From Gemmatimonadaceae bacterium (lineage in GTDB: Bacteria; Gemmatimonadota; Gemmatimonadetes; Gemmatimonadales; Gemmatimonadaceae), in contig JANWIF010000147.1 of assembly GCA_025450035.1 (NCBI GenBank), positions 1-64,000 of the forward strand: 64,000 nt of DNA, in the 5' to 3' direction. Positions within the stretch are counted from its first letter, which is position 1, and each line of letters begins with the position of its first letter. The translations under genes and the position numbers were made by a program. The notes below the pieces were generated by a model. It was given only the letters and a program-made list of their open reading frames with translations. It did no database searches and was not told the origin of the DNA. Shown one piece after another: positions 48,201-64,000 of the stretch.

Positions 48201-48835
48201 CCGCTCGTGTCCAGCGTGACCTGCGTCTGCACCGCCACGCGCCGCCCGATTTCGGCGAACAGCCGCTCGAATCCCGCCAGCGCAGCCTTCACTTCGAGGA
48301 TATCCTGCGCCGTCTCGACCAACAGCACGTCCACGCCGCCTTCAACGAGGGCCTTCGCCTGCTGGTAGAAATCGTCCTCGAGCTCGGCGAACGTCACCGC
48401 CGAGAGCGTCGGGTCGCTGCTCGACGGCAGCATCCCCGTTGGGCCAATCGATCCCGCCACGAAGCGCGGCCGACCATCGGTCGCGAACGCGCCGCACGCC
48501 GCACGTGCGAGCTGCGCGGCGCGGACGTTGAGCTCGTGCATGCGGTCGCCCAACCCCCATTCGCGGAGGCGGCGCGGCGTGCTCTGGAACGTGCACGTCT
48601 CGACCACATCGCAGCCCACCGCCAGGAACGACTCGTGGATGCCGCGGATCACGTCGGGTCGCGTGAGCACGAGCTAGTCGTTGCATCCTTCGTAGGCCGC
48701 GCCGCCGAAATCAGCCGCGGTGAGCGCGTGGCGCTGGATGTTCGTTCCCATCGCCCCGTCGTATATCAGAACGCGGCGCGACAACTCGTCAATGTACGGC
48801 GAGGCAGAAGATGGAACGGAGGCGGTATCGCTCAT
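45260..48835 (-). CDS. metH: Cobalamin-dependent methionine synthase, interrupted by an in-frame TAG at 48674-48676
   Basis: Reading through TAG gives [69 protein letters not shown]...; Hcy-, pterin-, B12-binding and activation domains all present downstream. Confidence 0.93.
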
Positions 48836-48880
48836 GAAGTCATCCGATGCGAAAAAGGCCGGGCGCGCACAGGCACCAGG

Positions 48881-48935
48881 CCGGCGCTTTAGCGGAATGT
48901 TTAACGTGGCCGCAAGTTGCCGTAAATCGCCACGA
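48881..48935 (-). ncRNA. SAM-II-like riboswitch aptamer upstream of metH
   Basis: - strand UCGUGGCGAUUUACGGCAACUUGCGGCCACGUUAAACAUUCCGCUAAAGCGCCGG: P1 CGUGGC/GCCACG, GAUUUA, UUAAA, CGCUAAA, pseudoknot CGGC/GCCG; located 46 nt upstream of the metH ATG. Confidence 0.75.
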
Positions 48936-49175
48936 TAGGTTGTCTCGTCTGCGTTGTAGCATAACGCGCGCTGGAGAGTGGGGCAAGGCGCAGGCCTTTA
49001 CAACGTCGCGCAAGCGCGCCCGAAAATCCCCTCACCCGTCCGGGTATCCTCGGCATTCTCCTTGCCCTAATCTTCACACCTTGCCATCGAACGCCTCGAT
49101 CACGCAAACGGCCGGCCGCACTTCAGTTCGCTCGTCGCCCATCCACGCGGTTCGATTCAATTCGCCTCACTGGAG

Positions 49176-50900
49176 ATGTTTGTGTGGATTCGTCGAATTC
49201 GGAAGAAGATAGTTACCACGCGGGTGATGCTGCCGATCTACCGCGACAAGGGCTACACGGGGGTCACACGATCTGTATCGCTCGCTACCAGGGGCGTCAC
49301 GCGCAAAGTGCTGATGACCGCGGTCGCCGTGACGCTTACGATCGTTCTCACTGTGTTGGGGCACCCCGTCATCGCCGTCCTCGTTGCGTTCCTCGCTCTC
49401 GGGCCAGGGTCCCTGTACGCGGTCCGCGCGGTGCGTCGGAAATCGCGAGTGAAACGCCTCGCGAACATTGGATGGTCTGGCATCGAAGGACTGCCGCCTG
49501 CACGGCAAACGCTGCTCGAGTTGGGCATCGCCGAAGCAACGGTTGATCGCGTTGCCCTCGCGTCGCAGGCCGCCGCGGTGCGGATCGCCACGTTCGATCA
49601 GGACAATCGAGTCCTTAGTGATATCGGACCCATCCCCTTCTTCGCAGACGTGCTGACCACACCACAGGAGTTCCGCAAGCGCGCTAGAAATGTCCTCGAA
49701 CTCGTGACCTACAAGGACGTTGTCTGCATAAGGAAGACATACGGGAATCGCTCGAACTTCGAGCAGGAAGTGCTCGCTCTGCATGCCCTCACGGGAGTTC
49801 CCGGCGTTCCCCGCTTGCTCGCAGTTCAGCACACCCCGCCTGCCATCTATGAATCCTTCGTCATGGGGCGCAGCATCGGCAGCCTGATGACGTCTCGCGG
49901 AGCGTCCGTTAGCGTGCAATATCGGGTCAGTACCTCCTTTGACGCTCCCGATCGTTGGAATCCAGGTACCATGGCACAGGCGCGCGACGTCGCGGTACAG
50001 GCGCTTCGGGCTTCGGCGGAACGCGATGTGATCGCGAAGGCTGCGGACTTGATAGATCGGATACACCTGCACGGAGTGACCATCGGCGACGTGAAATACG
50101 GAAACGTGCTGGTGGTGGACGGCCTGCCCTACATTTGCGACTTCGAAGGTGCCGAAGTGCACAGCCGCAACGATTGGCGATTCGTCAACGACCGTGCGAC
50201 CGATCGCGAAAAGTTCAACTACTTCTTCGATGGCGACGTGCTCTCCGAGCGGGCCTTTCGTGGAACCGTTGCCCTCCTCGCTCGCGAGAAACCTGACCTG
50301 TTCTACGCGCCCATTTACTACGGGCACGGATACGAAAGCCGAGCCCCTGGCTCGATTGAATTGGGTTCTGGGAAATGGCACTTCATCCGGCCGTACCTGC
50401 CCGACCTCGTAGGGAAGAGCATCGTCGACCTTGGTTGCAATAATGCACTGCTCCCGCTTGAAATGCTTCGGGCGGGTGCTCGACGGGTAACGGGCTATGA
50501 GCTCAACCCCACGGTCGCGCGCTACGCCCGCCTCAACCATCACTGGTTCGAGTTCGTCGACAACAAGCGATACCTCGGGTTCCAACTGATCGAGGGACAC
50601 ATGCACGAGGCGTGTGACCGAGACTGGTCTGGCTACGACGTGGCGACTGCCTTCTGCAGTTTGTACTACGAGGAGCCGGAAGAAATAGCTCGCATTGTGC
50701 GCACGTTTAGCAAGGCGATCGATTGTTTTGTCGTGCAGGCGAATGAGAACCGCGATGAGCATGCTGGTGTTCTACTCGAGCGCTCGTCCCTCCGCTTTCT
50801 GCGCGATGTACTCGGCGCCAACGGATATCCGGATCAGACCGTCATTGAGTTCCCATATTATGACCGGCCCCTGGTGATTGGTAGGCGATCAAAACGTTGA
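49176..50900 (+). CDS. Membrane-anchored kinase-like domain fused to class I SAM methyltransferase
   Basis: N-terminal hydrophobic hairpin; kinase loop HLHGVTIGDVKYGNVLVVDGLPYICDFEGAE; methyltransferase motif I GKSIVDLGCNNALLPLEMLRAGARRVTGYELNP. Confidence 0.85.
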   Translation: MFVWIRRIRKKIVTTRVMLPIYRDKGYTGVTRSVSLATRGVTRKVLMTAVAVTLTIVLTVLGHPVIAVLVAFLALGPGSLYAVRAVRRKSRVKRLANIGWSGIEGLPPARQTLLELGIAEATVDRVALASQAAAVRIATFDQDNRVLSDIGPIPFFADVLTTPQEFRKRARNVLELVTYKDVVCIRKTYGNRSNFEQEVLALHALTGVPGVPRLLAVQHTPPAIYESFVMGRSIGSLMTSRGASVSVQYRVSTSFDAPDRWNPGTMAQARDVAVQALRASAERDVIAKAADLIDRIHLHGVTIGDVKYGNVLVVDGLPYICDFEGAEVHSRNDWRFVNDRATDREKFNYFFDGDVLSERAFRGTVALLAREKPDLFYAPIYYGHGYESRAPGSIELGSGKWHFIRPYLPDLVGKSIVDLGCNNALLPLEMLRAGARRVTGYELNPTVARYARLNHHWFEFVDNKRYLGFQLIEGHMHEACDRDWSGYDVATAFCSLYYEEPEEIARIVRTFSKAIDCFVVQANENRDEHAGVLLERSSLRFLRDVLGANGYPDQTVIEFPYYDRPLVIGRRSKR

Positions 50901-50989
50901 TGCAGGGAGGAGGGGCGCACAAATCTTTCCCATTGGCGTGAGGCACCCGCTGTGAGGTGCGTGACCCATGCCGCGAGGAGTCCCAGCGC

Positions 50990-52435
50990 ATGCGTGCAAT
51001 TCAGGTAGTCGTTCTTGTCGCGGTAACCATCGGCACGGCCATCGGCGCGAATCGGATTTCGGCTACCAAGAGCGCAGCACCCGCCACGGTGCGCGACCCC
51101 GCGTTTGTCTCGAGCACCGGCACGCCTGCACAGGCGTCCAAACCCTACAGCCCCACCTCGCCGCACTGGTCGCACATTCGCACGATGGTCACGGACTTCC
51201 GAATTGGCTATGTCTCCAACGTCGCCCAACGGAACGCCGAGCGATCGTGGACCGCCGGTCATTTCGACTACGTGATGTCTGGTGATGCCAGTGCGTACAA
51301 GGCAATCAACTCGACGATCCGCATCCTTCCGTACGCCCTGGACTGGGATGTCATCCAGCCCGGCCAGGAGAAGTCGTCCGCCCTCGGCTCGACGTACTAT
51401 CCCGACATGCAGCAGTGGTTCGCGAACCATCCGCAATTTGCGCTCGAAAACGCGTTCGTGCACGTCGCGGGGCAACCGAAGTCCGAAAGCACGCGATTGC
51501 AGTTCGTCTCGTGGGGCTCGCGAAAGTGGGTGATCAATCCAGGCGATTCGGGAGCACGAGCCTACGTCGTCGACCGGATTCGCCGCGTAGTGCAGGATGC
51601 GGACGGCGTGTTCTTCGATTCGCACAGCTCCGGGGACGTCGGGACAGCGTTAGGCAAACAACAGATGCTGGAGTACTCGGATCGCAAATTGTACGAGCAT
51701 GACATGGTCGAGTATGTGCGCACAATTTCGGCCGCGGTTGCGCCGAAAGTCATCATGATCAACACGTCGGAATACATGCGGCCGTTCGACTATGCGATGA
51801 TCACCGCGGCTGGCGCCGTCCACCTCGAGCGCATGAACAATCCGTTGAACAGTGGCATGCCCGAGCGGTGGCGTTGGGCGGACTCGCTGCTGGCGCACAA
51901 TGTGACCGTCGAACTGGTCCCGTTGAACAGTTGGAACGAAGCCAACACCGCGCGGGGCGTCTTTTCGACATTCACTCCAGGAGATTACTCGTCCAAGGGT
52001 GAACGCCTGAAAATGTTCGAGCTCGCCAGCTACTACATGGTGGTGCCGGCGACGCCTGACCAGCTGTTACTGGACCTCGAAAATTCCTGGAAGGTCCCAT
52101 TCGAAACAGTGTGGCTCAAGGCACAAGAGTACGATGTGGGACACCCGCGCGGGGCGCGGCGCGCACTCCAGACCGGTCGGGATCCGATGGGGAATGGTTT
52201 TACCGTTTGGGCGCGTGACTTCGACCGCGCGCTGATCCTCGCGCGCCCGTCCAGCAGCTGGCGGGTGAAGATTTTCGGCGACACCACGGCTGTGTCGGTG
52301 CCATTGCCAAATGGCCAGGCGCTGCGACCGCTGCGCGGCGATGGAACTCTGGGACCGCCGGTTACTTCGATCACGCTTCGCAACGCAGAGGCGGCAATCT
52401 TGATCAAGTCTTCTGCAGATAGTACGGGCGCATGA
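50990..52435 (+). CDS. Exported putative glycosidase-like protein (paralogue of the 60.4-62.4 kb protein)
   Basis: Signal-like N-terminus; SPHWSHIRTMVTDFRIGY ... DADGVFFDSHSS ... ELASYYMVVPATPDQLLLDLENSWKVPF ... ARDFDRALILARP. Confidence 0.75.
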   Translation: MRAIQVVVLVAVTIGTAIGANRISATKSAAPATVRDPAFVSSTGTPAQASKPYSPTSPHWSHIRTMVTDFRIGYVSNVAQRNAERSWTAGHFDYVMSGDASAYKAINSTIRILPYALDWDVIQPGQEKSSALGSTYYPDMQQWFANHPQFALENAFVHVAGQPKSESTRLQFVSWGSRKWVINPGDSGARAYVVDRIRRVVQDADGVFFDSHSSGDVGTALGKQQMLEYSDRKLYEHDMVEYVRTISAAVAPKVIMINTSEYMRPFDYAMITAAGAVHLERMNNPLNSGMPERWRWADSLLAHNVTVELVPLNSWNEANTARGVFSTFTPGDYSSKGERLKMFELASYYMVVPATPDQLLLDLENSWKVPFETVWLKAQEYDVGHPRGARRALQTGRDPMGNGFTVWARDFDRALILARPSSSWRVKIFGDTTAVSVPLPNGQALRPLRGDGTLGPPVTSITLRNAEAAILIKSSADSTGA

Positions 52436-53823: not shown

Positions 53824-54468
53824 TTACGGCACGCGTGAGCTCGTGACTCCCACCGTGTTGTGCGCGCTCGGAATCTGCCGAACCACGCGCGCGGGGTTTC
53901 CCGCGATGATCGCGTTGGCAGGGTAGTCGCCGGAGCAGACGGCGCCAAACCCGACGACGGAGTTCGCACCGATCGTCGTGCCGGGTAGAATCCCCGCGCT
54001 GCCCGCGATCCACACGTTTTCATCCAACCGCACCGGTGACACACGCACCTGCGCGGTTGGATCGTGGCGATCAACGTGCGTGCTGTGGAAGTTGGTGTCC
54101 ATGATGCGCGCCTGCGCGAGAATCGCACGCGGACCGACCGTGATCTCTTGCTGGCAACCGAAACGTGTGCCGTTTACGTACGAGTCGCTGCCGATCGAGA
54201 TCACCGCATCGACGTCATACGTCCACGGCGTCACCTCGCCGTCAATGTGCACGTTGTCGCCGATCACCACCCGTCCCGGCCCCCGCAGTCGGATGCGCCC
54301 CGAAACGCGAAAGTTTTTCCCCGCTGAGAACCGCACTCCGAGGAGCCCGTACCACGTCTTGTATCGCCATCCCCGCAGCAACACGATCAATACGCTGAGA
54401 CCCTTGCGTGGGTCGCGAAGGCCCTTGGCGATCCGTGACGACATGGTGCTCACTCTCTCCGGGTTCAT
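53824..54468 (-). CDS. Left-handed beta-helix acyltransferase (WbbJ-like)
   Basis: Hexapeptide repeats; VRLDENVWIAGSAGILPGTTIGANSVVGFGAVCSGDYPANAIIAGNPARVVRQI. Confidence 0.92.
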   Translation of the reverse strand: MNPERVSTMSSRIAKGLRDPRKGLSVLIVLLRGWRYKTWYGLLGVRFSAGKNFRVSGRIRLRGPGRVVIGDNVHIDGEVTPWTYDVDAVISIGSDSYVNGTRFGCQQEITVGPRAILAQARIMDTNFHSTHVDRHDPTAQVRVSPVRLDENVWIAGSAGILPGTTIGANSVVGFGAVCSGDYPANAIIAGNPARVVRQIPSAHNTVGVTSSRVP

Positions 54469-54482
54469 AGCGCTCCGTTCCG

Positions 54483-55769
54483 TCACGCCGCGCCGTCGGG
54501 CGACGAGATCAGGCGCAGCGCACGCCACCGCGCACCGGCGCGCTCGCCCAACGCGGCGACGCCCATTCCCACGGCGGCTCCCGCTGCCACGCCGAACCAA
54601 TCTGACCACGATGCGGCCGTACCATGTAGCACTAGCGGCGAAGCCACCAGCCCAAGGACCACTGCGCCGCACAGGATGGCGAACCTCTCATCACGCCGCC
54701 CCGAACGACTGCTCCAGTACACCAAGGGAAAGAACAACCCGCCCAACCAAAGCATCGAGAGAAACGGCGTTTCGGCGCCGAAGGCGTATCCCCAGGGGAT
54801 AAAGAAACTCCAGCCGAGCCCAGGACTCAACGGCACTCGCCGCTCGCGTACTCCGTGCACATCGCTGGCTTGCACCACGAGCGATCCCGCGACAACGCCG
54901 CCGGCCACCCGCACGGTATCCCGACGCTCGACCCCAACTGGCGCGGCAACCGGAAACACATCGTCGAGTTCGATGACCGGGTCACGCAGCAGGGAGCGTC
55001 CAGCGTTAGTGCGCATCGAGAACTGCAACGCACGCCCCCGTTGTCCAAGTAGAAAAATCTGCGTCTTTTGCCAGTCATAGATACCAAGAATTGGTGCCAC
55101 CCGCTGAGTGGGCGATCCGGGAATCACCGAGGCGCGAACGAGTACGCTGTCCGACACCAATCGATGGCGGAAGGTGCTGTCGCTTCCAAACGCGCCGGGC
55201 GGAAACGGAAAGCCTGCGGCATTCGCGTTCAGCACCGTCCCCGAAAAACGATCGAAGTGCAGCAGCTCGGGCTCCCACTGCCCCCACATCGTCGTCGGCG
55301 GAAGGGCTCTCTGCAGTCCCCACACCGACGCTGCGAGAACTCCCACCCAGATCACGGCACCGCCCCACATCAGCCGACGCGCTTGTCTCGCGGTAGGCAG
55401 CACCCACAGCCTCCATGAGTCAGCCAACGACACGCCGAGCGCGCCGCCCAACGTGTTGGTGATCACGTCGCCCAGGCTCGAATCGCGGCCCGCAATGATG
55501 TGCATCTGCAGGAGCTCGACGGTGATCGTCGTGCACGCCGCGATCACGATGGCGCGCCGCCGCCCGAATCCGGCCAACCGCATGCCGAGACCGAACGGGA
55601 CGAACAAAATCACGTTGAGCAGGATATCTTGCACCGCTGCATCGCCGCAGAGAATGCAAAGGCTCGGCGTATACGTTGACGGCCCGGGTTGTGGGGTCAG
55701 CGTCATGCTCGCGATGAACGCGAAGCCCAACAAGGCGACAATTCGTCCGGTAGCGCGTTGTGGTGTCAA
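54483..55769 (-). CDS. VanZ-family membrane protein
   Basis: LCILCGDAAVQDILLNVILFVPFGLGMRLAGFGRRRAIVIAACTTITVELLQMHIIAGRDSSLGDVITNTLGGALG. Confidence 0.92.
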   Translation of the reverse strand: MTPQRATGRIVALLGFAFIASMTLTPQPGPSTYTPSLCILCGDAAVQDILLNVILFVPFGLGMRLAGFGRRRAIVIAACTTITVELLQMHIIAGRDSSLGDVITNTLGGALGVSLADSWRLWVLPTARQARRLMWGGAVIWVGVLAASVWGLQRALPPTTMWGQWEPELLHFDRFSGTVLNANAAGFPFPPGAFGSDSTFRHRLVSDSVLVRASVIPGSPTQRVAPILGIYDWQKTQIFLLGQRGRALQFSMRTNAGRSLLRDPVIELDDVFPVAAPVGVERRDTVRVAGGVVAGSLVVQASDVHGVRERRVPLSPGLGWSFFIPWGYAFGAETPFLSMLWLGGLFFPLVYWSSRSGRRDERFAILCGAVVLGLVASPLVLHGTAASWSDWFGVAAGAAVGMGVAALGERAGARWRALRLISSPDGAA

Positions 55770-55917
55770 TGCAACATCTCGTGTGGTTGGTCGGTAGCGC
55801 GCCGAACTGTTCGACGGACTGCTCGCGTGGCGTCTCAGAGTGGCACCCTACCTGCAGCAGCGCAGCGCTTGCGTGGCTGCGCTGCAGACGCGTTTTCGTC
55901 GTTCGTATCTCACGACC

Positions 55918-56814
55918 ATGACTTCTGTGCGCGCTCCGGTGGAACATATCTTTACGGTAGACGTGGAGGAGTATTTTCACGTCGGCGCGTTCGAAAGCGT
56001 TGTCTCCCGCAAGGATTGGAGCAGTTATCCCAGCCGCATCGACGGCAGCATTGACCTGCTCCTCGACCTGCTCGCTCGACACGGGGCGACTGGCACGTTC
56101 TTCACGCTCGGCTGGGTGGCCGATCACCATCCGCGCGTGGTGCGGCGTATCGCACAGGCGGGTCACGAAATCGCGTCTCACGGATACTGGCACCGGCGGG
56201 TCGATTCGCTCGCGCCGGAGGAATTTCGGCAGGATCTCCGTGCGTCCAAAGCGGTGCTCGAAGATGTGTGCGGGGCTCGCGTTTCGGGGTTTCGTGCGCC
56301 GAACTTCTCCATTCGTCCTGGGTGCGAGTGGGCGTTTGACGTCTTACTCGAGGAAGGATTCCACTACGATTCGAGCCTGTTTCCCATCCGTCGTCCGGGC
56401 TACGGCTATCGGGCCGCGCCAGTGGTGCCGCACATTATACGCCGCGCGTCGGGCGCGCTCTGCGAACTACCGCTGGCCACGACAGGGTGGCACGGAGCAC
56501 GCATTCCAGCAGCCGGTGGAGCGTATCTTCGTCACTTTCCCTTCAGCATCATCCGCCGCTGCCTCCGTGAGCACACCGATTCTGGAATTCCCGCCACGTT
56601 CTACTTGCATCCGTGGGAACTGGATCCGGACCAACCCCGGCTCCCCGTGGGATGGGTTACGAGAGCACGACACTACGGCGGACTCGCACGCACGCGTCCG
56701 CGCCTGGAACAGCTGCTCGCCGAGTTCCGCTTCACGTCGGCCGCGCGATGTCTGAAACTACCGAGCCCGGCCCCCCGAACGCTGAGCGCGAGGGTCTCGA
56801 ACGCGGACGACTGA
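55918..56814 (+). CDS. Polysaccharide deacetylase with DUF3473-type C-terminus
   Basis: IFTVDVEEYFHVGAF ... GTFFTLGWVADHHPRVVRRIAQAGHEIASHGYWHRRV ... FYLHPWELDPDQPRLP. Confidence 0.95.
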   Translation: MTSVRAPVEHIFTVDVEEYFHVGAFESVVSRKDWSSYPSRIDGSIDLLLDLLARHGATGTFFTLGWVADHHPRVVRRIAQAGHEIASHGYWHRRVDSLAPEEFRQDLRASKAVLEDVCGARVSGFRAPNFSIRPGCEWAFDVLLEEGFHYDSSLFPIRRPGYGYRAAPVVPHIIRRASGALCELPLATTGWHGARIPAAGGAYLRHFPFSIIRRCLREHTDSGIPATFYLHPWELDPDQPRLPVGWVTRARHYGGLARTRPRLEQLLAEFRFTSAARCLKLPSPAPRTLSARVSNADD

Positions 56815-57836
56815 GTGCGCATGTCGCTCCGTTCACGGGCACGCCGGCCGAGTGGGACGGCTTCGTGCGCACTGCGCTGGGTTGGACACATTTCCATCTG
56901 CATGGGTGGAAGACCGTAATCGAGCGCGCCATGGGACACGAGTGCATTTATCTCGCGGCTCGCGACGACGCCGGACGCCTTAGCGGTATACTGCCACTGG
57001 TGCGAGTCCGGAGCCGCGTGTTCGGACATTACCTAGTGTCGATGCCCTTTCTCAACTACGGCGGCCCGTTAGGCGATGACGATGCTGTGCGCGCCCTGGC
57101 CGGCGCGGCGGATCGGATCGCGCAGCATGACCACGTGACACTGCTCGAGTTGCGCAGCCGGCGCGCGCTGCCGCTGTCCTTGCCGGTGTCGCATCGCAAG
57201 ATCACGGTGCTTCTCGACCTGCCGTCCACCGCGCCAGAGTTGTGGAGCCGACTTCCGGCCAAGGTGCGCAGCCAGGTGCGGCGTCCACAGAAAGATGGCG
57301 TAACAGTGCTGTTTGGCGCCGACCAGGTCGCGCCGTTCTTCACTGTGTTTGCACGTCACATGCGCGAGCTTGGCACTCCCACTCAGCCGCGCCGCCTGTT
57401 CGACATTATCTCAGAAGTTTTCGGCGATGATGTGTGGTTCGGCTGCGCCTACTTGAGCACGCATCCCGTTGCCGCCGGGTGCGCGTTTCGCTGGGGCGGC
57501 GAGGTCGAAATGACCTGGGCGTCCTCGCTCGCCTCACACAATCGCGTCGCGCCCAACATGATGCTCTATTGGAGCTTCATGGAGCGGGCGATCGATGCCG
57601 GACTCAGCACGTTCAATTTCGGGCGCTGTACCCCGGAGTCGGGGACTCATCGGTTTAAGCGACAGTGGGGCACGCGCGATGAGATCTTGTGGTGGTACGG
57701 TCGCGCAGCGCGCGAGGGCGCTAAGACGCCTTCGCCAGATGATCCAGGCTATGCGTGGGGTCCACGTCTCTGGAAGCGGCTTCCGACGCGCGTCGCCACG
57801 GCCCTCGGCCCGCGCATCGCCCGATTCATCCCGTGA
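56748..57836 (+). CDS. FemAB-like GNAT-fold transferase of exopolysaccharide loci
   Basis: WDGFVRTALGWTHFHLHGWKTVIERAMGHECIYLAARD ... NFGRCTPESGTHRFKRQWG. Confidence 0.92.
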   Translation: MSETTEPGPPNAEREGLERGRLSAHVAPFTGTPAEWDGFVRTALGWTHFHLHGWKTVIERAMGHECIYLAARDDAGRLSGILPLVRVRSRVFGHYLVSMPFLNYGGPLGDDDAVRALAGAADRIAQHDHVTLLELRSRRALPLSLPVSHRKITVLLDLPSTAPELWSRLPAKVRSQVRRPQKDGVTVLFGADQVAPFFTVFARHMRELGTPTQPRRLFDIISEVFGDDVWFGCAYLSTHPVAAGCAFRWGGEVEMTWASSLASHNRVAPNMMLYWSFMERAIDAGLSTFNFGRCTPESGTHRFKRQWGTRDEILWWYGRAAREGAKTPSPDDPGYAWGPRLWKRLPTRVATALGPRIARFIP

Positions 57837-57838
57837 GC

Positions 57839-59041
57839 ATGCGCCGGCAGTTACCCGTCTCCTCGCCGCTCGCGTTCTCATCGCTCGCGGCAGCGCTCTG
57901 GCCCGCTGTCTCGCGCGATGCCGGCGGGTTGCTCGACGTTGCCGCGGCGCTGCGCGAGTCGTATCACGCCGCACGTGTCGCACTGACTGACAGCGGCACA
58001 TCAGCACTCGTGCTCGCGCTCCGGCTCGCGGTCGGGGAAGGAGGCACCGTGGCGTTCCCCGGATACGCCTGTGTCGATCTCGCCGCCGCCGCGCGCTTCG
58101 CGCGGGTGCGCGTGAGACTGTACGACATCGATCCGCGTACGCTCACCCCCGATCTGGACTCGCTCACCGGCGCGGTCGGCCGTGGTGTGCGAGCCATCGT
58201 CGTTGCTCCTTTGTATGGGTTCCCGCCCGACCTTCCGGCCGTGGAGGAGATTGCCACGCGGTTCGGCGTTCCAGTCATCGAGGACGCGGCACAGGGGGGC
58301 GGGGGCGCACTGCACGGCAGACCGTTAGGCTCGTTTGGAGCGCTCTCCGTGCTGAGCTTCGGGCGTGGCAAAGGAATCACCGGCGGCCACGGCGGCGCGC
58401 TCCTCGGACACGATCCCGCGTTCGACGACGCGTTCGCGGGCGAAATGGCTGCCCTTGGCGCGCCGGCGCGCGGGTGGACGGACCTTGGCGCCGTTGGGGC
58501 GCAATGGGTGTTGGGACGGCCCGCCCTCTATGCGATCCCGTCAGCGATCCCCGGCTTACGGTTAGGCGAGATGGTCTATCATCCTGCGCACACACCACGT
58601 TCACTCTCCGCGGCGGCGGCGGCGCTGGTCGCCCGAGCCCTGCGCGCGGCGCCGGCTGAGGTGGCCACTCGCCGCCGCAATGCCGCCGCGCTCACCATAG
58701 CGGCCGACGAAGGAGGGGACGTGGAATCGATCGCTCTCCTGCCCGGCGCCGTGAGTGGCATGCTGCGCTTTCCCGTGCGCGACACAGGCGCGCGTCCGCA
58801 ACGCCCCGAGCTCGGCGTGCTCCGGGGGTATCCGCAAACGCTTCACGAGCAATCGGCGCTGCGCGACTGCCTCCAAGCCGGTGAGCCCGCTACACCCGGA
58901 GCCGCTGAACTTCGCCGCACGCTTTTCACGCTGCCCACGCACAGCCGGGTTACGCGGCACGATCTCGAGATGATGATCGAGTGGCTGCGCGTACCGATGA
59001 CCGTGCTGGCTCCAGTGCTCGCCACGGCGCGTCGGGCATGA
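57839..59041 (+). CDS. DegT/DnrJ/EryC1-family PLP aminotransferase
   Basis: ALTDSGTSALVLALRLAVGEGGTVAFPGYACVDLAAAARFA ... VPVIEDAAQGGGGALHGRPLGSFGALSVLSFGRGKGITGGHGG. Confidence 0.92.
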   Translation: MRRQLPVSSPLAFSSLAAALWPAVSRDAGGLLDVAAALRESYHAARVALTDSGTSALVLALRLAVGEGGTVAFPGYACVDLAAAARFARVRVRLYDIDPRTLTPDLDSLTGAVGRGVRAIVVAPLYGFPPDLPAVEEIATRFGVPVIEDAAQGGGGALHGRPLGSFGALSVLSFGRGKGITGGHGGALLGHDPAFDDAFAGEMAALGAPARGWTDLGAVGAQWVLGRPALYAIPSAIPGLRLGEMVYHPAHTPRSLSAAAAALVARALRAAPAEVATRRRNAAALTIAADEGGDVESIALLPGAVSGMLRFPVRDTGARPQRPELGVLRGYPQTLHEQSALRDCLQAGEPATPGAAELRRTLFTLPTHSRVTRHDLEMMIEWLRVPMTVLAPVLATARRA

Positions 59042-60333
59042 CGACGTTCGAGACGCCCGCTCGGTCGCCGGACCTGCTCGGTCCAGCCGTCGGCGAGTAT
59101 AGCGCCCCTCTCGCCGCACACCGGCTGAGCGTGATCTATCTGTCGGATGCGGACTATCCGTGGGATGTGCGTACGGAGAAGATCTGCGCCACGCTCACGA
59201 GCGCCGGACACGACGTGCACATCGTGGCCCGCAACCGCGCGTGGAGTGTCACCACGGAGCGCCTTCCCGAAGGCACTGTGCATCGGATGAAGCCCTGGCG
59301 TTGGATCGGGCAGCGCGCCGACGAGCTCCTGGGGTTCCCGGCGTTCTTCAGTCCTCGCTGGCGGCGGGTGCTCGACGAGACGGTTCTCCGCGTACACGCG
59401 GACGTGATCGTCGCTCGTGACCTTCCGCTGGCGCCAACCGCGATCTCCATTGGCCAGCGCCGGCACGTGCCGGTAGTACTCGACATCGCCGAGAACTATC
59501 CGGCGATGATGCAGATGATCTTCAACGCAGGCCGACAGAAGCTTGTGGACTATGTCGTGCGCAACCCTGCCGCCGTCGTGGCGGTCGAGCGATACAGTCT
59601 CCTCCGCGCGGACCGCGTCCTCGTCGTGATCGAAGAAATGGCTGACCGGTTGGCGACGTTCCGCGTGCCGCGCGAGCGGATTGACCTTGTCTCCAATACG
59701 CCGCCGCGGTCGCGCGCCGAGCACGCAGTCGAGCGGCCACACAAGCCCGCAGACGAACCAATCACTCTCGTCTATCTGGGCTTGCTTGAGGTGCCACGCG
59801 GACTCATGGAGCTCATCGATGCGGTGGCTCTCCTGCGCGACGACGGCGTGCCGGTGCGGTGCGTCGTGGTCGGCAAGGGACGCGATGCCGCGCTGTTCCA
59901 CGAGCGCGCCCGCAGTCTCGCGTTGGGACCCGATCACGTGTCCTTCCTCGGGTACGTGGATCGAGAAACAGCGATGGCCGCTGTTCGCGACGCGGATGTC
60001 GGGATGCTCACGCACCATCTCAACGATGCATGGAACACGACGATTCCCAATAAACTTTTCGACTACATGGCCGAAGCTCTGCCCGTCATCACATCGAGCG
60101 TGGCGCCGTTCGCTCGCATCGTTCGTGAAACCGGAGCCGGCGAGGTATTCGACGCGGGAGACGCTCGCTCGCTCGCCGGCGCCGTGCGGCGGTTGCGCAG
60201 CGACGCCGCGCGCCGCGCATGCGGAGCCGCCGGTCGTCGCGCTGTACTCGAGCGCTACCATTGGGAACGCGACGCCGTTGTGCTGCTCCGTGCGCTCGAG
60301 CTGACCGCTCGATCAGCAACGCGCGCGCGTTGA
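59038..60333 (+). CDS. Glycosyltransferase family 4
   Basis: SDADYPWDVRTEKICATLTSAGHDVHIVARN ... PNKLFDYMAEALPVITSSVAPFARIVRETGAGEVFDAGDARSLA. Confidence 0.92.
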   Translation: MTTFETPARSPDLLGPAVGEYSAPLAAHRLSVIYLSDADYPWDVRTEKICATLTSAGHDVHIVARNRAWSVTTERLPEGTVHRMKPWRWIGQRADELLGFPAFFSPRWRRVLDETVLRVHADVIVARDLPLAPTAISIGQRRHVPVVLDIAENYPAMMQMIFNAGRQKLVDYVVRNPAAVVAVERYSLLRADRVLVVIEEMADRLATFRVPRERIDLVSNTPPRSRAEHAVERPHKPADEPITLVYLGLLEVPRGLMELIDAVALLRDDGVPVRCVVVGKGRDAALFHERARSLALGPDHVSFLGYVDRETAMAAVRDADVGMLTHHLNDAWNTTIPNKLFDYMAEALPVITSSVAPFARIVRETGAGEVFDAGDARSLAGAVRRLRSDAARRACGAAGRRAVLERYHWERDAVVLLRALELTARSATRAR

Positions 60334-60423: not shown

Positions 60424-62430
60424 ATGGAAACGACGCTCTGTACTGACTCGTCCCGGATACGCACCCGACATTCCGGAGGAGCAGTGAGCATCGCGCATCA
60501 TCGATTCATCCGCGCTGGCGCGCTGATGACCATCGTCGTCATTCTCGCGTCGTGTGTGGAGAGCTCGGCGCTCACCGATCTTCCCGAGAATCCGGTGTCA
60601 CCGGTGAAATGGGTGCTGATCGATCCGGCGAGCGCGCAGATCGCGCCGGGCAAGAACGTTGCGCTCCAAGTGGAGCTGCAAGACGGTGCTGGCCGCGATC
60701 TGAACGGACAGCCGGTCGCCTGGAGTAGTTCAGACAGCAACGTGGCAACGGTCGACAGCACCGGACTCGTGACCGCGAAGAAAACGGGCTCCGCCAACAT
60801 CATTGCCGCCTCGGGTCAGACCTCCGCGTACGCCGTGGTGAGCGTCTCCACTGCGCCGCCACCTACGTTGTTTGTGTCGCTCACTCCTGCCACGGTTACC
60901 ATACCCGTGCAAGGCGCGGCGCAGATTTTCGCGACCGTCAAGGACGCATCGGGCAACGTGGTGACCAACACGAAGATCACGTGGGCCACGAGCAATGCAT
61001 CGGTGGTCACGGTAGACGCGTCGGGTGAGATCGCAGGCGGGAATCCGGGAACGGCGGTAATCAGGGCTACCGCAGGAACGGGAACTTCCAGCGCGACCGT
61101 CAACGTGACCAACGTCGCGACGCCACCAACGTCTCCGCCGCCGCCGCCGCCGCCGCCTCCCCCGACACAGCTCGTGTCGCTGTTCGACGACTATAGTGCC
61201 GTCTCACCGCATTGGCGCCACATCCGCACGATGATGACGGACTTCTACTACAACTGGACCGCGACCGAGCGTGCGTGGGCCGGCGCGCACTATGATCTCG
61301 CCATGTCGGGCGACGGATCTGCTTGGCTCGCCGCCAATTCGATGGTCAGACACTTGCCATACGCAATTGAATGGGAGACCGAGATCGACGACGGCAATCC
61401 TGGCATCTCCGTACAGGTCTACGTCGACATGCAAGCGTGGTATGCGGCGCACTCGCAGTACCGTATCGAGACAGCCTTTCTCCACGCAGCAGGTGAGCCG
61501 GCGGACTCCGCGCACCGGTTGGTGAACTACTCATGGGGAACGAACAAGTGGGTGTTCAACCCCGCAGACCCTGGATTGCGCGCTTACCAGGTGGATCGCT
61601 TTACTCGTCTTGCGAACGGTCACGGCGGCGTTTTTCTCGACACGGAGAATTCGAGCGCGCTCATGTCGGTGGTCACGCTATCCAGCGAGTACCCGGTCGC
61701 GGATGCGTTCAAGAGCCCACACACCTCCCTGTTGGCGGCGATCAAGACCGCACTCGGCAACAAGCTGCTCATGATCAACACCGCGCAGTACACCACCGAC
61801 TTCGATTTGGCGAACGCAAAGGCGGCCGGCGCAGTACATCTCGAGAAGATGAATAGCCCGCTCTTTTCCGAGAGTTATCTGCGGTGGCAATGGTGCGAGA
61901 CGCTCATGGCTAACGGTGTCTTCGTTGACCTCGTAAGTAGTCTGTCGAGTGGAGAGGATGCATCGCTATCGACGGTGCCACCGGGGAACTCGGCGACCAC
62001 CGCACAGCGCATGAAGTTGTGGGAGCTGGCGAGCTACTACATGGTCGTCCCACAGACACCCGACCTTATCGCGCTGCAGCTCGAGAACATGTGGAATCTG
62101 CCGTATTCATCCATTTGGACCCGGGCGCAGGAAGCGGACATTGGGCATCCGACCGGCACACGCACTATTCTCTCGCGCGGCACGGACCCGCTCGGCCAGG
62201 GGTACACCATTTACACGCGAGACTTCGATCGGGCGCTCGTCGTGCTGCGTCACCAGAGCGGGTGGGGCACCCAGATTTATACGAACGCCAGCGCGATCAG
62301 CATCCCCCTCCCTGCCGGCGAGACCTGGCTGCCTCTGCACGCCGACGGCACAGTCGGCTCCGCGGTGACGAGCATTTTGCTTCGAAACTCCGAGGCGGCG
62401 ATTCTCATCAAGAAAAGCAAAGTTCAGTGA
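60424..62430 (+). CDS. Lipoprotein with BIG2-like Ig domains, Pro-rich linker and C-terminal glycosidase-like domain
   Basis: Lipobox ILASC; Big2 pattern AWSSSDSNVATVDSTGLVTAKKTGSANIIA; PPPPPPPPPP linker; C-terminus aligns with the 50.9-52.4 kb protein. Confidence 0.85.
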   Translation: METTLCTDSSRIRTRHSGGAVSIAHHRFIRAGALMTIVVILASCVESSALTDLPENPVSPVKWVLIDPASAQIAPGKNVALQVELQDGAGRDLNGQPVAWSSSDSNVATVDSTGLVTAKKTGSANIIAASGQTSAYAVVSVSTAPPPTLFVSLTPATVTIPVQGAAQIFATVKDASGNVVTNTKITWATSNASVVTVDASGEIAGGNPGTAVIRATAGTGTSSATVNVTNVATPPTSPPPPPPPPPPTQLVSLFDDYSAVSPHWRHIRTMMTDFYYNWTATERAWAGAHYDLAMSGDGSAWLAANSMVRHLPYAIEWETEIDDGNPGISVQVYVDMQAWYAAHSQYRIETAFLHAAGEPADSAHRLVNYSWGTNKWVFNPADPGLRAYQVDRFTRLANGHGGVFLDTENSSALMSVVTLSSEYPVADAFKSPHTSLLAAIKTALGNKLLMINTAQYTTDFDLANAKAAGAVHLEKMNSPLFSESYLRWQWCETLMANGVFVDLVSSLSSGEDASLSTVPPGNSATTAQRMKLWELASYYMVVPQTPDLIALQLENMWNLPYSSIWTRAQEADIGHPTGTRTILSRGTDPLGQGYTIYTRDFDRALVVLRHQSGWGTQIYTNASAISIPLPAGETWLPLHADGTVGSAVTSILLRNSEAAILIKKSKVQ

Positions 62431-62686: not shown

Positions 62687-64000
62687 ATGGCCCATCCGCA
62701 GACCACAATTCCGATCGATCAGACGCCGTCGCGGTATCCGGCGATGATACCTCCTGACTCGCCGTGGGCCGAGTTGCGTGCCGATCGCCTCATGAAGGCG
62801 ATCGGCTGGATGATTTTCGCGTATATCTGGCGGATTCAGGACGTGCTGCCAATTCTCGGCAAGGTTCAGCTGCCGATCTTGGTCGGCGCGATCTCGGTTG
62901 GATTCTACGCGACATCGCGTCATCCAGCTCGGCGAGCCCGCCTCCTGAAATCGCCGCTCACGTCGCTGACTCTGCTTCTGTGGGGAATCATGCTGGTTGG
63001 TGTCCCTACCAGCCTCTGGGCAGGACACAGCCTGAGCTTCGCACTCAAGAGCCAATTGCTGAACATCCTGTTCATGGGGCTGGTCGCGTTGAGCATTCGC
63101 AGCGTGCGCGACGTCGAATGGTTTGCGCGCGTGAACCTGTACGGTGCGATGTTCTACGCCACGATCGTGAACATTTTCTTCAGTGTGGGCTCCGACGGTC
63201 GACTGTCGAATCTTGTGTTCTACGATTCCAACGATTTCGCTTTGGTGATGGTGACGACAATTCCATTCGCCCTATTCTTCTTGCGACCCGGCAACAGCTC
63301 GCGGCGCCGGGCGATCGCCCTGGCTGCCCTCGCCATGTTGCTCATTGGCATTGTGAAGAGTGGATCGCGGGGCGGCTTCATTGGCCTCATCGTAGTGCTG
63401 CTCTACGTTCTGGTGCGCTATCGCTCGATTCCCAGCCGCGTGCGCATGTTTGCGGCTCTCGGTGGCATCGTACTGGTGGCTGCGTTGGGCTCGGACAAAT
63501 ATTGGACGCAGATCAGCACGATCGCGCATCCAGAAGGCGACTACAACTGGACCGACCCGGTCGGCCGCAAAGCAGTGTGGGAGCGTGGGCTGGGGTACGT
63601 GGAGCAACACCCGCTGGTGGGTGTTGGTGTCAAGGCGTATCCGATCGCGGAAGGCACGTTGTCCGACATCGGACGCTCGTTATCCGCGCAAGGGAAGGGA
63701 TTCAAGTGGTCGGTGGCGCACAACTCGTTTCTGGAGACAGCCGCAGAGTTGGGCATCCCCGGCCTCATTGTGTTCGTGGCGTTCTTCGTCGTCGCCATTC
63801 GCACGCTCATGCGCGTGAAACCGGGACGCCGATACGGGCCATGGATCTCGACACGCGAGACAGCCATCGCGCAGATGCTCGTGGGCGCCCTCGTGGGATT
63901 TGCCGTTGCTGGCATCTTCGTCTCGGCGGAGTATTTCTCATATCTGTATTTTCTACTCGGGCTCGTTATCGGCTTCGACAAGATTCTCCGCCTGCGTCGA
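62687..64000 (+). CDS. O-antigen ligase/polymerase-like membrane protein, partial at window end
   Basis: Open frame from ATG 62687 to the edge: MAHPQTTIPIDQTPSRYPAMIPPDSPWAEL ... SGSRGGFIGLIVVLLYVLVRYRS ... VAHNSFLETAAELGIPGLIVFVAFF. Confidence 0.9.
   Translation, partial: MAHPQTTIPIDQTPSRYPAMIPPDSPWAELRADRLMKAIGWMIFAYIWRIQDVLPILGKVQLPILVGAISVGFYATSRHPARRARLLKSPLTSLTLLLWGIMLVGVPTSLWAGHSLSFALKSQLLNILFMGLVALSIRSVRDVEWFARVNLYGAMFYATIVNIFFSVGSDGRLSNLVFYDSNDFALVMVTTIPFALFFLRPGNSSRRRAIALAALAMLLIGIVKSGSRGGFIGLIVVLLYVLVRYRSIPSRVRMFAALGGIVLVAALGSDKYWTQISTIAHPEGDYNWTDPVGRKAVWERGLGYVEQHPLVGVGVKAYPIAEGTLSDIGRSLSAQGKGFKWSVAHNSFLETAAELGIPGLIVFVAFFVVAIRTLMRVKPGRRYGPWISTRETAIAQMLVGALVGFAVAGIFVSAEYFSYLYFLLGLVIGFDKILRLRR

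Follow-up and report, generated by a model that had tools for sequence, protein, structure and literature searches.

A putative membrane-anchored kinase–methyltransferase-like protein at an exchangeable position of a Gemmatimonadota exopolysaccharide locus

WbdD, a methyltransferase–kinase, acts in ABC-transporter-dependent systems together with a coiled-coil ruler (PMC3482155, PMC11231755). The N-terminal methyltransferase–kinase of Klebsiella O7 ORF6 is a second known methyl-phosphate terminator (PMC11231755), showing that methyltransferase–kinase pairs arise repeatedly. The NoeA/Lani_1194 kinase–methyltransferase family comprises about two thousand homologues, 94% of them with the methyltransferase domain; it has been set apart from the WbdD-like group in a survey and is proposed to decorate secreted glycans, NoeA itself being encoded in a Nod-factor decoration operon (nodL-noeA-noeB in Sinorhizobium; PMC9758233).

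We analysed a window (the whole 64,000-nucleotide stretch of DNA, from a Gemmatimonadaceae bacterium) encoding a protein, here termed KM, that a first-pass annotation had described as resembling WbdD and as a possible glycan chain-length terminator. The fusion of a kinase with a methyltransferase domain in one protein was borne out by homologues and by profile and fold matches; the terminator role fared less well. The features discussed are collected in Table 1.

Table 1 Coordinates of KM, its domains and neighbouring features in the window.
Feature	Position	Strand	Basis or remark
KM (574-aa membrane kinase–methyltransferase-like protein)	49176..50900	+	ORF and homologues
Hydrophobic hairpin, aa 40–86	49293..49433	+	Hydrophobic segment, long enough for two helices
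Kinase-fold domain, about aa 135–345	49578..50210	+	Conserved residues, profile and fold matches
Class I methyltransferase-like domain, aa 386–574	50331..50897	+	Pfam, NCBIfam, profile, Foldseek
SAM loop VDLGCNNALLP, aa 417–427	50424..50456	+	Three-sequence alignment
GHL15-like (weak, E 0.024) secreted-type protein	50957..52435	+	56 bp 3' of KM
Exopolysaccharide genes	53824..60333		Domain matches
Wzy_C O-antigen polymerase/ligase gene	62687..64000	+	Runs past window end
Exchangeable interval, metH to GHL15-like gene	48671..50956		KM here; sulfotransferase in congeners

The KM protein and its kinase domain

KM is encoded by a single uninterrupted frame in which GC content rises at third positions, supporting its coding status; a GTG at 49182, with a Shine–Dalgarno-like GGAG six bases upstream, may be where translation really starts. 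A search of 399 genomes from the same phylum gave two full-length homologues at 32–35% identity, in genomes G159 (33%, E 3e-85) and G184 (35%, E 6e-81), so the frame is not a chance one. Those other first-scan matches in the phylum that were examined proved to be typical Ser/Thr kinases or methyltransferases (ordinary TIGR04290-type or other), and no relatives were found among the plasmids and viral contigs searched. Window KM and the two homologues are the known sequences of the KM family in the phylum.

The N-terminus is strongly basic (10 Lys/Arg against one Asp/Glu in the first 40 residues) and precedes a hydrophobic stretch that is kept in kind in all three members but hardly in sequence, the N-terminal region of the homologues being ~20% identical to that of window KM. 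This agrees with the membrane hairpin proposed earlier, and the catalytic domains would be expected on the cytoplasmic side.

The kinase-like domain, first proposed from a Lys, a Glu, a catalytic loop and a DF motif, also stood. Residues K187, E198, D305, K307, N310 and D322–F323 are invariant in all three members and include the set expected of an active kinase (β3 Lys K187, αC Glu E198, catalytic D305/N310 and the metal-binding Asp D322). A profile built from the three sequences matched kinases in the PDB at E 4.2e-5 and solved methyltransferases at 6e-4, on separate, adjacent stretches, and one homologue matched Pfam Pkinase at 5.5e-4, under the family cut-off. AlphaFold models made from only three sequences were poor (pLDDT 49.5 for the full length and 54.7 for the kinase domain, the latter confident in the N-lobe only) and give weak fold support. 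The top 50 Foldseek matches listed for the kinase-domain model were protein kinases, the pseudokinase MLKL or APH-type phosphotransferases, and 49 of the 50 listed for the low-confidence full-length model were class I methyltransferases; we take these lists as support for both folds, not as proof. Profile and Foldseek matches together point to a kinase fold in the N-terminal half.

Glycan loci and an exchangeable position

KM lies at the edge of an exopolysaccharide locus, in keeping with the position first assigned to it. The exopolysaccharide genes of Table 1 encode a hexapeptide acetyltransferase (−), VanZ (−), an XrtA-type polysaccharide deacetylase (+), FemAB (+), a DegT aminotransferase (+) and GT4 (+). 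A Big_2 protein is encoded between GT4 and Wzy_C, and past the window the contig continues with a deacetylase, GT4, GT2, Bac_transf (an initiating sugar transferase), Wza-like and Wzz/AAA (tyrosine-kinase-like) proteins. Judged by its gene content, the locus is a Wzy-dependent exopolysaccharide pathway. The XrtA/PEP-CTERM-type deacetylase (TIGR03006) and FemAB (TIGR03019), at 55840–57836, score above curated cut-offs. The Big_2 protein (60424–62430) carries in its C-terminal part (residues 257–663) a domain ~42% identical to a congener's GHL15-like protein, which makes two paralogous GHL15-like domains in this locus (60424–62430 and 50957–52435).

All three KM members lie in or adjoining glycan loci, and the phyletic pattern is to that extent linked to polysaccharide synthesis. 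KM of G184 sits inside a related exopolysaccharide locus that has about eleven gene matches in common with the window, including GT4a (48% identity), GT4b (44%), a deacetylase directly 3' of KM (47%), Bac_transf (54%), FemAB, DegT and VanZ; that of G159 lies near GT4, VanZ and a match to the XrtA-type deacetylase. An obligatory pairing of KM with the GHL15-like protein was considered and rejected, since the regions retrieved around KM in G159 and G184 lack the latter.

Two congeners (G201 and G366) have the same locus order as the window, with neighbours 60–84% identical and GHL15-like orthologues 62% identical. Between metH and the GHL15-like gene, both carry a sulfotransferase (Sulfotransfer_3, E 2.8e-25 and 8e-25, respectively). 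In a third congener (G230), metH directly abuts RR/yggU/yggT, with KM, the sulfotransferase and the GHL15-like gene all absent there, and metH is likewise next to RR in the more distant G071. The sulfotransferase or empty site in congeners places KM in an exchangeable slot, and the sulfotransferase/KM swap, observed at a single position of a single genus, is new here. No match to the congener sulfotransferase was found in the window's own genome, which is 81% complete. The G366 sulfotransferase match (L062 3527–4504) crosses a single in-frame TAG close to the C terminus.

At 59.2%, the GC content of KM is below the 66.4% of the window's first 45 kb. The gene is also rare: 2 of 180 family genomes and 3 of 397 genomes from the class carry it. 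Low GC and rarity fit an acquired accessory gene, and KM is most simply read as a tailoring gene of this kind at a position open to exchange. KM and the GHL15-like gene point the same way, but the sulfotransferase gene is oriented against its GHL15-like neighbour, so the functions of the two occupants need not be equivalent.

Proposed function and the methyltransferase-like domain

The exchange with a sulfotransferase points to KM as an accessory tailoring enzyme adding phosphate, perhaps methyl-phosphate. We propose, with confidence evenly balanced for and against, that it serves the Wzy-type exopolysaccharide pathway, its kinase phosphorylating a sugar within the lipid-linked repeat unit. 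The N-terminal hairpin would anchor KM to the inner membrane and leave the two catalytic domains on the cytoplasmic side, and the kinase domain would move phosphate from ATP to that sugar. The C-terminal domain, of class I methyltransferase descent, would then methylate the phosphate or a nearby hydroxyl or, alternatively, with catalysis lost, would only position the substrate. Since the slot in close relatives holds a sulfotransferase, the anionic group may be phosphate here instead of sulfate. Extending this more tentatively, the position could be an exchangeable anionic-decoration slot of Gemmatimonadota exopolysaccharide loci, in which sulfation is swapped for (methyl-)phosphorylation by a hitherto undescribed membrane-anchored kinase–methyltransferase family. 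If true, bacteria change from sulfate to phosphate on a given surface polysaccharide by exchanging a single gene, and a simple swap of genes would be tied to altered surface-charge chemistry.

Of the functions proposed for KM, methylation is the least certain. That the C-terminal domain is of the class I SAM methyltransferase type, as first annotated, was upheld by the Foldseek list and by sub-cut-off matches to Pfam Methyltransf_9 (5.4e-5, just under the cut-off) and NCBIfam TIGR04290 (9.8e-7, far below it). TIGR04290 and CmoB-like (Methyltransf_9) methyltransferases are the closest named sequence families, but their loop ends in GCNAGFY where KM has GCNNALL. The loop had been read as a SAM motif and proved not to be canonical: it runs VDLGCNNA in the window, VDLGSGQP in G159 and VDLGTRDP in G184, with the third Gly of GxGxG being Ala in window KM and Pro in both homologues, and the E/DxGxGxG loop of active class I SAM methyltransferases is absent from all three members.

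KM might, on this evidence, be a phosphate-only enzyme, its kinase active and its methyltransferase domain a non-catalytic relic or scaffold throughout the family; we hold this to be a serious possibility, although one we would lean against. The acidic residue at the end of β2 is Glu in the window and G159 and Gln in G184, where the domain has 141 residues as against 189 in the window, ~47 being missing from the second half, and this second half has the lowest identity among the catalytic regions of KM. The kinase active site is without erosion such as the SAM loop shows. Because the loop is eroded in all three members and the domain truncated in one, methylation by KM is doubtful, and the terminal methyl-phosphate suggested in the first pass is weakened accordingly. 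Pulling the other way, window KM has a full-length domain that keeps E442 and the NP after it, Ala at the third-Gly position may still permit SAM binding, and the first half of the domain is conserved as well as the kinase.

A kinase fold alone does not tell sugar from protein substrates, and a membrane-bound protein kinase could regulate the exopolysaccharide machinery, for example a Wzz-type tyrosine kinase or a glycosyltransferase. The best sequence matches of KM among solved structures are protein Ser/Thr kinases, but they span only the catalytic loop, which is common to all kinase-like folds, and one homologue matches the APH and Kdo kinase families about equally well. We regard such a regulator as unlikely; the fused methyltransferase-like domain and the replacement of a sulfotransferase better suit a small-molecule or glycan substrate.

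A WbdD-like terminator would phosphorylate and methylate the non-reducing end of the growing glycan and so stop polymerization. KM does have both activities by fold, a predicted membrane association and a place beside polysaccharide genes, but the locus is of Wzy/Wzz/Wza type and the SAM loop is eroded. No Wzt_C was found near KM, the only one in its own genome being on another contig, and none was found in the G159 and G184 genomes; KM also ends with its methyltransferase domain, leaving no C-terminal coiled-coil segment, and similarity of its kinase to that of WbdD is undetectable (hhalign probability 0.1%). In Wzy systems it is the Wzz-type proteins that determine chain length. For this reason, and because the structural features with which WbdD measures and stops chains are missing, the chain-length terminator of the first-pass annotation is very improbable, and KM probably decorates the polysaccharide rather than caps its length. 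The Wzt_C-type ABC exporter domain elsewhere in the genome lies at a contig end (C42:286–591), so a second, ABC-type glycan locus is probably present there. We rejected an anti-phage defence role, to which we attach next to no weight, since the weak PADLOC matches behind it (PD-T4-6 at 5e-6 for one homologue; mad2 of Mads at 9e-4 for window KM) cover only 40–50 residues around a generic kinase catalytic loop or SAM loop, and all three KM loci are exopolysaccharide loci.

Comparison with WbdD, the Klebsiella O7 enzyme and NoeA

Like WbdD of Escherichia coli O9/O9a and Klebsiella O3, KM joins a kinase to a class I methyltransferase, is probably membrane-associated and belongs with polysaccharide genes. 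The order in WbdD is methyltransferase, kinase, coiled coil, whereas in KM the kinase comes first; WbdD has a C-terminal amphipathic helix in place of an N-terminal hairpin, its pathway is of ABC-transporter type (wzm/wzt, Wzt_C) rather than Wzy_C, Wzz and Wza, and it ends in a coiled-coil ruler that KM, judged from domain layout, lacks. Profile comparison (hhalign) with the WbdD annotated in the O9 cluster of E. coli HS gave P 0.75 for the kinase and P 0.079 for the methyltransferase, and P 0.019 over the full length through the methyltransferase only, suggesting generic methyltransferase similarity and no detectable kinase likeness. Membership of the WbdD group was rejected on domain order, coiled coil, Wzt_C and homology alike. 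In Klebsiella O7 ORF6, compared by description, the methyltransferase again comes first, followed by an AmiN-like kinase and then by coiled coil and GT modules, in an ABC pathway.

The order of KM, which had seemed notable as an inversion of WbdD, is already that of the NoeA/Lani_1194 family, with the kinase N-terminal and the class I methyltransferase C-terminal (PMC9758233). Both families occur in Gemmatimonadota, NoeA-family proteins being present in 13 of 201 genomes (L046–L058). These homologues are far from legume symbiosis; that of Gemmatirosa is on NZ_CP007130. We located noeA on S. meliloti pSymA, as confirmed by records annotated noeA, and aligned 16 NoeA-family proteins as a profile. 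Against it, the three-row KM profile gave an hhalign alignment of 191 columns (P 1.3e-5, probability 81%, score 50.4; 60 column-shuffled targets, 17.0±2.9 with a maximum of 26.4; reversed, 11.5) that is collinear from the kinase catalytic region across the linker to methyltransferase motif I. The methyltransferase part alone scored 46.6 against a shuffled maximum of 18.9, and the kinase part alone 30.9 against 29.2 (P 0.001).

NoeA is the kinase–methyltransferase that aligns best with KM, and a remote common origin is plausible from these profiles, more strongly for the methyltransferase half; full-length pairwise similarity was not detectable by BLAST-level search. NoeA has no identified ion-pair Glu, and Arg replaces Lys (PMC9758233). 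Its aligned members are without the membrane hairpin of KM, and its SAM loop is intact (GCNTG) where that of KM is eroded. NoeA also has a partner, NoeB, with an alkaline-phosphatase/sulfatase fold, and no NoeB-type gene was found among the KM neighbours examined at the three loci. KM would add a membrane-anchored branch to the kinase–methyltransferase fusions represented so far by NoeA, WbdD and Klebsiella O7, and would point to a role for such fusions in decoration within the pathway as well as in chain termination.
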